Below, piece by piece: positions 49,095-51,768 of a DNA stretch of 64,000 bases; within the stretch, counting starts at the first letter, position 1; every line of letters starts with the position of its first letter. The position numbers and the translations under genes are program-made. The DNA comes from Tellurirhabdus rosea. Its GTDB lineage: Bacteria; Bacteroidota; Bacteroidia; Cytophagales; Spirosomataceae. Under the pieces are notes generated by a model. That model searched no databases, had not been told where the DNA came from, and was given only the letters and a program-made list of their open reading frames with translations. The stretch spans positions 4,932,282 through 4,996,281 of the forward strand of contig NZ_CP111085.1 in NCBI RefSeq assembly GCF_026278345.1, given 5' to 3'.

Positions 49095-50117
49095 ATGTAC
49101 ATACATACAATTGACTACGACAAAGTAATTAAAAGCAGGTATGTTACTGCGGTAACAAATTATAGATATGCACTAAATTATCTCGTCCCATTAATAGACC
49201 GTCTGGATATTCAAAGAAATATCCAGGATAGCAAATTCTATAGCCGACTTGAAAGGGACTTGGTGAAAGGTTGCATTATGCCGCCTTTAACACTTGCTTT
49301 TATCGACCAGAATGCCATAAACATTGAGGATAGTAAGGCCTTTTCGATATATTTCGAAGAGAATATAAAGGAAGGATTTATACTTGATGGTATCCAAAGG
49401 CTAAACACATTGCAGCGAACCTTTAAAAAATATGATGGCGAATTGGATTTAAACAGAAACCTTTATTTGAATATAGTAATATGTTCTTCAATGGACAATT
49501 TGCTTTATCGAATGATTACGCTTAATAATGGCCAAAAACCAATGTCTGCACGTCATCAAATTGAAATATTGACAGCTAATTTATTTGAATTTGAAGGCTC
49601 GGAAATGCCAATATTTACAGAACGTGAAGCTAAAAGGTTAAAAATAAAAGTGGCATTTAATAAAAGTGATTTTATAAAAGGATATTTAGGATTTTTAGCC
49701 AACTCAACAAACATAGAAAACCAAAAAATCATTGAGGAAAAGCTGGATGAGCTAATTGCTGATAAAATTCTTGATTCAAATATTACCGAAGATGAACTTG
49801 AATTCTCAGATATAGTTGGTATTATTAATAGATTTAGTACAAATGATAGATTGTTCAAGTGGTTCAAAAACGCAAATAATTTTATTGGGTTCTGTGTAGG
49901 GATAAAGTCAAATTATCAAGTCATAAATTCAACTAAAACAGAGTCGTTTAATGACTCCGTTCGTCTATTCGAGCAGGCTTTTGAATCTTTCAATTTTTCG
50001 AAAATAAAAGTTGGCAGAATTCGTAGGAACTTAGTAAGCTATTTTATAAAGAATTATGGTGAACTTAGTAATACTGATGTTTTAGATTTAGTTGACATTT
50101 TATCGCAAGTCGATTGA
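49095..50117 (+). CDS. DGxQR-motif protein (ParB-like fold; DUF262/DGQHR-like)
   Basis: The 340-residue product carries LDGIQRLNTL (Asp98 to Arg102), matching the DGQQR/DGQHR signature of DUF262 and DndB-like ParB-fold proteins. It also has a later NNGQKPMS segment (144-151), the second conserved block of this group. These families appear in restriction-like systems (GmrSD, Dnd, BREX-associated). Codon and base use are AT-rich, unlike all genes up to acs. The next gene starts one base after its stop, so the two form a coupled pair. Whether it is a nuclease, an NTPase or a regulator is not shown. Confidence 0.8.
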   Translation: MYIHTIDYDKVIKSRYVTAVTNYRYALNYLVPLIDRLDIQRNIQDSKFYSRLERDLVKGCIMPPLTLAFIDQNAINIEDSKAFSIYFEENIKEGFILDGIQRLNTLQRTFKKYDGELDLNRNLYLNIVICSSMDNLLYRMITLNNGQKPMSARHQIEILTANLFEFEGSEMPIFTEREAKRLKIKVAFNKSDFIKGYLGFLANSTNIENQKIIEEKLDELIADKILDSNITEDELEFSDIVGIINRFSTNDRLFKWFKNANNFIGFCVGIKSNYQVINSTKTESFNDSVRLFEQAFESFNFSKIKVGRIRRNLVSYFIKNYGELSNTDVLDLVDILSQVD

Positions 50118-50118
50118 T

Positions 50119-51030
50119 ATGACAGCATTCGAACCCTTTTCGTTCAAGGAGTGCTTGCCGCCAAGGTCTCATTCCGCATTGTCACCAATTTTACATGTTA
50201 AGCCGAAGCAGAATTCCGAAGTTTTACTTTTACGTTTACTCTCAGGTACATTAGACCTTAAAAATAATACAACAGGTATATTAATAAATCAAAGGAACAA
50301 CTACACATTATTTGACTTTAGGCCAAATCAAAGAATATCCGCAACGGTAATACTTAATGTATTCTCAATAGATGGAATTAGTGAAGCAAAAGTTTTCAAC
50401 TACTATAAAGAGTGTTTCAAGTTTGGGAATCGTAATCTATTTAAAAACTTATTACTTGAACTGAGTAATTATTTTTATCAAACTCAAAAGAAATCTCATG
50501 CGACTGCATTCTTGCACTTATACCGTTCATTTGAGTTAATCTCTTACTGTTTTCCTTTATTTTATGCATCTAAGTCTACAAGTTATGAAAAGACGTTTAT
50601 AAGCTTAAAAGAATATTTTTCAAAGGCTGATGGGGAGAGACCTTTTTTTAAAAAATTTGTACATGATCATTTATTTGCAAGCGATTTACGACTAGACCAG
50701 ACTTTACCAATAAAAATTACAGCTCCTAAGCCCGAGCTACAAAAACAGTACTTCGATGCACTAAAAAGGTTATGCGATGCCAATTCGAATATTGACGTTA
50801 AGTCTGCAACACCAAACATAGAAATTGTAATATCAAGAAAAGGCTTAACTAGTCTTATAATTGATTTAAGGAATAGATACTTTCATTTATTGACGGGAGA
50901 TTTTAACGACAACTTTAGCTCTGGTGAATTAGCCGAAATTGATCAGTGTTTTGTTTTATTAAATGACATAATATTAAATTGGCTATCTGTTATTTATTTT
51001 CAGATAGTGAAAAAAACAATAAGCCCATGA
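50119..51030 (+). CDS. HEPN-motif protein coupled to the DGxQR gene
   Basis: The 303-residue, AT-rich gene has one recognisable motif near the C-terminus: R251-N-R-Y-F-H256. This fits the R(N)xxxH signature of HEPN ribonucleases, and helical sequence follows it (GELAEIDQCFVLLNDIILNW), as in ApeA/Abi-type HEPN domains. The first two thirds are not recognised. The start is one base after the previous stop; an alternative start overlapping that gene is in frame. The partner and base composition suggest a defence or toxin-antitoxin type module, which is inference. Confidence 0.7.
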   Translation: MTAFEPFSFKECLPPRSHSALSPILHVKPKQNSEVLLLRLLSGTLDLKNNTTGILINQRNNYTLFDFRPNQRISATVILNVFSIDGISEAKVFNYYKECFKFGNRNLFKNLLLELSNYFYQTQKKSHATAFLHLYRSFELISYCFPLFYASKSTSYEKTFISLKEYFSKADGERPFFKKFVHDHLFASDLRLDQTLPIKITAPKPELQKQYFDALKRLCDANSNIDVKSATPNIEIVISRKGLTSLIIDLRNRYFHLLTGDFNDNFSSGELAEIDQCFVLLNDIILNWLSVIYFQIVKKTISP

Positions 51031-51081: not shown

Positions 51082-51255
51082 ATGATTCACCACCAATTCG
51101 CAGAGCGGGCCAGACGGGTTTTGGCGGAAGACCCAACGGTTATCGGCCTGTCCGTGGCTGGCTCCTGGCTGACCAACGAACTTGACTAATTCTCCGACCT
51201 TGACCTTGTCTTGGTTACAAAAACGAAAATTTTCACCGACCGGGAGGTTCCTTAA
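51082..51255 (+). pseudogene. Remnant of a nucleotidyltransferase (MNT) gene with a nonsense codon
   Basis: The frame from ATG 51082 reads an MNT N-terminus with the conserved run GSW..ELD, then TAA at 51187-51189, then continues in the same frame as FSDLDLVLVT up to a second stop at 51253-51255. Intact homologues have DE[YF]SDLDL here, so a single G-to-T change of a Glu codon is a simple explanation. The rest of the protein is missing. It looks like an aminoglycoside-type nucleotidyltransferase fragment and lies 51 bases after the HEPN gene. Confidence 0.85.
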
Positions 51256-51288
51256 TCTTCTAAACAACGCCAATATTCTGTTCGTGAT

Positions 51289-51768
51289 ATGATCTTTATG
51301 ACACAAACCATATTTTACACCGACTTTAAAACCTTACGATCAGCCTACATCGAGGTAAAGTCGTTTATTGAAAAAGAAGCTGGCGACGAGGTGTCTTCGT
51401 TGAACACTAAAATTGAAGATGATTTAGGCTGTGCAGGGGACGATAATTATGAACTCCTTGAAAAGTTCGTCGCTAAATATAAATTGGACGCTACTGGGTT
51501 TAAATATTCAAAACACTTTCTTTCAGAAGGCGAACTTTTTGGTTCTGGGGCGGCACTTTTGACACTTTTGGCGTTGCCTTTTGTAATTACGTTTCGGTTG
51601 ATTAAGGGGTTAACGCGTGGAAAGGTTGACCTAAACAAAGCCAATTTAATTCCTGATTGGCAGCGGCAAACAACAGACATAACATTCGGTGACCTGTTGA
51701 CCTGGTATCTAACCGGTCAATACAACCTTCGGGCAAACGTTGTGGTACGATTAGGAAACGCCGGATAA
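51289..51768 (+). CDS. DUF1493-like protein
   Basis: The 159-residue product has an acyl-carrier-like helical N-terminal half with the pattern KIEDDLGCAGDD.YELLEKF and a C-terminal half with one hydrophobic segment (about 85-105). This resembles DUF1493-type proteins; the match is by eye. Two Met codons near the start (51289 and 51298) are equally plausible. It is of intermediate GC content and sits at the right edge of the AT-rich island. Its function is unknown. Confidence 0.65.
   Translation: MIFMTQTIFYTDFKTLRSAYIEVKSFIEKEAGDEVSSLNTKIEDDLGCAGDDNYELLEKFVAKYKLDATGFKYSKHFLSEGELFGSGAALLTLLALPFVITFRLIKGLTRGKVDLNKANLIPDWQRQTTDITFGDLLTWYLTGQYNLRANVVVRLGNAG

Follow-up and report, generated by a model that had tools for sequence, protein, structure and literature searches.

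A compact, divergent Dazbog-type gene pair with a probable HEPN-type ribonuclease in Tellurirhabdus rosea

Introduction

Dazbog is reportedly an anti-phage system formed by DzbA and DzbB and is said to go back to Millman et al. 2022. Of these two proteins, DzbA contains a domain of the DUF262 type, and without DzbA defence is lost; the system can be triggered by methylases of phages (PMC10952713, PMC12409349). Reviews still give the mechanism of Dazbog as unknown, and no link between Dazbog and HEPN proteins was found in the literature that we searched. Folds of the DUF262/ParB kind bind nucleotides; HEPN domains that carry an Rx4-6H motif act as RNases independently of metal (PMC10952713, PMC3710099). 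The two are combined in PD-T4-2 of E. coli, which consists of a DUF262 protein and a HEPN protein of the family PF18735 (PMC10952713). In addition, the HEPN families RiboL-PSP-HEPN and MAE_28990 were noted in 2013 to occur in operons with ParB genes (PMC3710099); their likeness to the locus described here lies in this HEPN-ParB association. The locus is a pair of genes, designated A and B, in a 64,000-nucleotide stretch of the Tellurirhabdus rosea genome, which is the whole stretch analysed and is referred to below as the window.

Locus and base composition

Genes A and B were both intact and encoded on the same strand, with exactly one base between the stop of A and the start of B (Table 1). 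The ATG at 50119 was taken as the start of gene B; the TTG start proposed by the ORF caller, at 50092, lies upstream of this ATG. A product of 303 aa is likewise encoded by the closest relatives of gene B (loci L002 and L003). The first-pass annotation of this DNA had described an AT-rich module of two genes one base apart, and this description was confirmed: the GC content was 31.6% for gene A and 32.0% for gene B (32% for the module) vs. 60% for acs and 57% for the window. Away from the module, the GC content of 1.9 kb stretches of the window was 49% at its lowest. Of the two line counts given in that annotation, 14 G/C of 60 at 49621–49680 was exact, and the acs line contained 40 G/C instead of 41.

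The gene acs is located upstream of the module, and a degraded stretch followed by map is located downstream. In the one congener examined, acs was followed by a different sequence and the pair was absent. Among 223 genomes of the family, three had gene B, one of them being the genome that contains the window. Taken together, the low GC content, the absence of the pair from the congener, and this sporadic occurrence fit a recent event, and the pair was probably acquired horizontally. Scans for promoters, terminators, and repeats revealed nothing beyond the level expected by chance, and neither a tRNA nor clear insertion repeats were found. The remnant of a nucleotidyltransferase-like gene adjoining the module reads MIHHQFAERARRVLAEDPTVIGLSVAGSWLTNELD from its ATG and looks like a pseudogene, with an in-frame TAA at 51187 within the GSW...D-x-D signature. 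The 159-aa ORF between the module and map matched Pfam DUF1493 with 21.5 bits at a cut-off of 21.

Table 1. Coordinates of the genes, motifs, and adjoining features, numbered from the first letter of the window
Feature	Coordinates	Strand	Description
gene A	49095..50117	+	340 aa; DzbA-type protein, DUF262-like, predicted ParB/Srx fold
QR			residues 40–41 of gene A; conserved
DGIQR	49386..49400	+	residues 98–102 of gene A; D98, G99, Q101, R102 invariant in 41 relatives
LLYRMITLNNGQKPM...HQ			residues 136–155 of gene A; conserved
gene B	50119..51030	+	303 aa; probable HEPN-type ribonuclease, probable remote relative of DzbB
YRSFE	50521..50535	+	residues 135–139 of gene B; Y135 and E139 in 44/44; inside model helix 127–151
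RNRYFH	50869..50886	+	residues 251–256 of gene B; Rx4H of the predicted HEPN active site
nucleotidyltransferase-like remnant	51082..51260	+	probable-looking pseudogene
159-aa ORF	51289..51768	+	DUF1493 match

Gene A is a DzbA-type protein

The sole match of gene A among the PADLOC models was DzbA (4.7e-47). The same model was matched by all 41 relatives of gene A, and any other single model by five of them at most; DpdB was a weak extra match in five of the 41. Alignment with canonical DzbA from four genomes by hhalign gave 100% probability and an E of 9e-47 over 314 columns. The QR, DGxQR, and LLYRM-LNNGQKPM-HQ blocks were invariant in the 41 relatives, and canonical DzbA carries these motifs too. 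The first-pass annotation had not recognised the pair as a named system; since gene A is a clear relative of DzbA, the two genes make up a divergent module of the Dazbog type.

Gene A matched Pfam GmrSD_N (PF03235, DUF262) with 20.3 bits, below the cut-off of 33.2, and is therefore filed as DUF262-like and not as a member of DUF262; canonical DzbA also scored below this cut-off, with 22–31 bits. The AF2 model of gene A had a pLDDT of 80 and a pTM of 0.58. A Foldseek search with this model yielded no significant match in PDB; the top of the list was occupied by ParB, Noc, BrxU, KorB, SspE, and PadC, all of which have ParB/Srx-type folds. A PDB sequence search returned a single coiled-coil chance match. 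As judged from the profile matches and the model, gene A is a DzbA-type, DUF262-like protein with a predicted ParB fold, in agreement with its initial placement in the ParB-like/DUF262-related group.

Gene B is probably a HEPN-type ribonuclease

In HEPN domains as described, helix 3 ends in Rx4-6H, the R of which is followed by a polar residue; helix 2 bears an acidic residue, and inserts occur between helices 2 and 3 (PMC3710099). In 44 gene B sequences, E114, Y135, E139, P146, N252, and H256 were invariant, and position 251 was occupied by R in 43 of them, with K in the other. The sequence with K (L023, 5123–6067; KNRYFH), the sole compact B with this replacement, retained the remaining motif residues. 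The DGIQR and NNGQKPMS blocks of gene A and RNRYFH of gene B, pointed out in the first-pass annotation, are present as stated; they are not chance occurrences, as DGxQR and LNNGQKPM are invariant among the relatives of A and the R, N, and H of the third motif are conserved to the extent just given.

The AF2 model of gene B (pLDDT 91, pTM 0.90) consisted of helices 105–123 and 127–151, the latter containing E139, an insert, and helices 240–259 and 274–301. RNRYFH formed the C-terminal end of helix 240–259, ahead of a loop and the last helix. Each of the HEPN features listed above is found in gene B, the topology being that read from the secondary structure of the model only. E139, in the predicted second-helix motif, is a candidate for the acidic active-site residue. 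Gene B itself had no family match in the profile libraries, Pfam and the DzbB model of PADLOC included, and PDB sequence search gave chance matches only. When gene B was compared with the ApeA and RiboL-PSP HEPN alignments by hhalign, only the motif was aligned and the result was not significant (P 0.31 and 0.53, respectively). Weak matches among the relatives of gene B were to Cas13-ApeA, Csx1/Csm6, Cas13a, HEPN_Apea, and Csm6 HEPN models. Foldseek with the gene B model found neither a HEPN protein nor any other significant match in PDB or BFVD, so the HEPN fold of B is a prediction. Profile search and structure prediction, proposed at the outset for both proteins, assigned gene A to DzbA, with ParB-like folds as the nearest but not significant structural matches, and gave gene B no family of its own; the early HEPN reading of B was supported by sequence features and model topology and not by the fold search. 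From these features and the model, we regard gene B as a probable HEPN-type ribonuclease.

Comparison with canonical Dazbog

Canonical Dazbog loci were collected from genomes, plasmids, and viral contigs. In all 57 compact loci, and in those canonical loci that have a complete partner, A was followed directly by B on the same strand. In both kinds, the first gene contains DGxQR and LN(N/T/S/A)GQxPM, and its partner contains Rx4H near the C-terminus, preceded by F-x3-Y-x2-E. The compact proteins are shorter: A is 340 aa vs. about 380–420 aa in canonical loci, and B is about 300 aa vs. 330–460 aa. The DzbB model matched canonical partners but not the window B, and among the 44 relatives of B it matched three (best 2.9e-5). 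A search requiring both Dazbog models would therefore miss the compact pair.

Profiles of compact and canonical B nevertheless gave a weak match by hhalign (P 2.6e-4 vs. 0.17 for the decoy) over 152 co-linear columns, in which F-x3-Y-x2-E and RNxxxH were joined in order. Rx4H in the last quarter of the protein was found in 25 of 25 canonical partners, against a mean of 2.0 in shuffled sequences, and in 65 of 66 compact partners, against a mean of 4.9. Of seven canonical-type DzbB proteins scanned, three weakly matched Pfam HEPN_Apea (0.0026 to 0.03). Gene B is probably a DzbB, at best a remote one, as far as the profiles can tell. Going by the Rx4H counts, HEPN-like effectors may occur throughout Dazbog; with the profile alignment and the HEPN_Apea matches added, such an effector appears to be shared by the DzbA-DzbB group in the wider sense.

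The phylogenetic tree was built from 92 A proteins (64 compact and 28 canonical) and is unrooted. Compact and canonical A were placed on opposite sides of one branch with support of 100/100 and a stem of 2.24 changes per column; being unrooted, the tree is compatible both with compact A as a sister to canonical A and with one nested in the other. The compact pairs thus form a well-supported clade set apart from canonical Dazbog by this branch, and we consider them a compact variant of Dazbog, so far unlabelled. The clade includes members of seven phyla, namely Bacteroidota, Pseudomonadota, Bacillota, Verrucomicrobiota, Cyanobacteriota, Thermodesulfobacteriota, and Balneolota, and would go uncalled by a two-model Dazbog search. 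One genome (G435) harboured a canonical Dazbog pair together with a compact pair (L061/L105 and L111).

Pairing and distribution

Genome scanning with gene A yielded 56 loci. A homologue of B was located directly downstream of A in every scanned locus covering both genes, and in 57 of 57 compact loci examined. Pairwise distances of A and B were correlated (rho 0.52 vs. at most 0.11 in 200 permutations). The pair is therefore a mobile, co-evolving two-gene module that has spread horizontally and not a core operon; with B in so few genomes of the family, the widespread core operon named in the first-pass annotation as the opposite outcome does not apply. Eight loci were found in viral contigs, which may be prophages, and tblastn of gene A against phage records (1e-3) gave no match. 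In one viral-contig copy (L077, 842–2725), B was split into three short ORFs of 151, 100, and 77 aa, possibly an inactivated effector or a sequencing error.

Genomic neighbourhood

The 120 neighbours of the pair matched 215 PADLOC models vs. 49 for 120 random Bacteroidota genes; this tally counts models and is inflated by redundant methylase models, and the control is from Bacteroidota only. The neighbours also include many housekeeping genes, and the enrichment of defence genes is suggestive only. The defence-island setting expected earlier is thus hinted at for the relatives and does not hold for the window copy, which is flanked by acs and map without a recognisable defence island. On a plasmid of Lactiplantibacillus plantarum (L073, 4590–13002), a compact pair is followed immediately downstream by a complete operon for type I restriction-modification. 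On a Moritella plasmid (L074, 1420–7362), 15 bases separate a DNA cytosine methyltransferase gene from the canonical-type pair that follows it, and a MvaI/BcnI-type restriction enzyme is encoded nearby. By a narrow motif search, a C5-methylase was found beside the pair in three of 69 compact and one of 28 canonical loci and is therefore not a general feature of the pair.

Possible function and alternative explanations

We consider it likely that the pair is a compact, divergent Dazbog-type module in which gene A acts as a DNA sensor gating the HEPN ribonuclease encoded by gene B. Gene A would probably bind a nucleotide and would sense something about the incoming DNA, plausibly how it is modified; it would either hold gene B inactive or activate it. 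Gene B, probably a metal-independent HEPN ribonuclease, would then cut RNA, and the infected cell would no longer support phage growth, an abortive outcome. The first-pass annotation had proposed such a DNA sensor with an RNA-cutting effector, a mechanism that the present results support in part; the two motifs and the design were right, and the link to Dazbog was missed.

Among other systems, PD-T4-2 resembles the pair in the broad design of a DUF262-like protein with a HEPN protein. It was rejected: no PF18735 match was found in the window B or among the families of its 44 relatives, hhalign of B with PF18735 proteins was no better than with a decoy (P 0.53), and no PD-T4 model was among the PADLOC matches of gene A or its relatives. 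ApeA-type HEPN proteins resemble gene B in having a helix that ends in RNxxxH and an acidic residue upstream of it, and canonical DzbB weakly matches HEPN_Apea; however, ApeA is a single-gene system in its own right, and the window B was not matched. GmrSD, BrxU, and SspE are DUF262-DUF1524 enzymes. They resemble gene A in its ParB/Srx-fold, DUF262-type motifs, whereas the pair has no DUF1524/HNH nuclease and has a separate HEPN-like partner.

This last difference bears on a type IV restriction-like activity, in which A would drive cleavage of modified DNA as GmrSD, BrxU, and SspE do, with B as an accessory or nucleic-acid-binding protein. The DUF262-type motifs of A, the presence of BrxU and SspE among its closest folds, and the restriction-modification genes adjoining some relatives all suit it, but A is too short for the DUF1524/HNH half, no such domain was matched, and the conserved catalytic-looking residues sit in B and are of the HEPN type; we regard it as very unlikely. 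Unlikely to a lesser degree is a defence system distinct from Dazbog, with nothing but the DzbA-type module in common; B would then be an independent HEPN family, recruited to the same partner, and the trigger would be another one. The long and fully supported stem of compact A, the shorter length of both compact proteins, and the weak similarity of B to DzbB would agree with this, as would the co-occurrence of both kinds in G435, which suits non-redundant functions. However, F-x3-Y-x2-E and RNxxxH are co-linear in B and canonical DzbB and the gene order is shared, which speaks for A and B having descended together from a common ancestor with canonical Dazbog. Least likely, in our judgement, is a toxin-antitoxin pair kept for its own sake, with B as the toxin and A as an antitoxin free of phage-specific sensing. 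Two small, co-transcribed-looking genes that are mobile, sporadic, and sometimes on plasmids would look like this, yet A is homologous to a protein required for Dazbog defence, and it is large, with strictly conserved putative ligand-binding motifs, unlike most antitoxins.

Returning to the Dazbog-type reading, it may tentatively be extended, with somewhat less than even confidence, to canonical and compact DzbA-DzbB as one design, in which a nucleotide-dependent ParB/Srx-fold sensor would gate a metal-independent HEPN ribonuclease and phage DNA modification would be what is sensed. If true, Dazbog would thereby gain its first mechanism, and the compact clade, with members in at least seven phyla, would represent a second type of Dazbog that has so far gone unannotated. 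For Dazbog as a whole, the pair yields a prediction that concerns R251/H256 and E139 of B and DGxQR of A.

In 62 pairs, mean pairwise identity was 25% for B vs. 43% for A, i.e., B evolves much faster. This is unexpected if A is the variable sensor; gene B may be pressed by phage inhibitors or may make the specific contacts.
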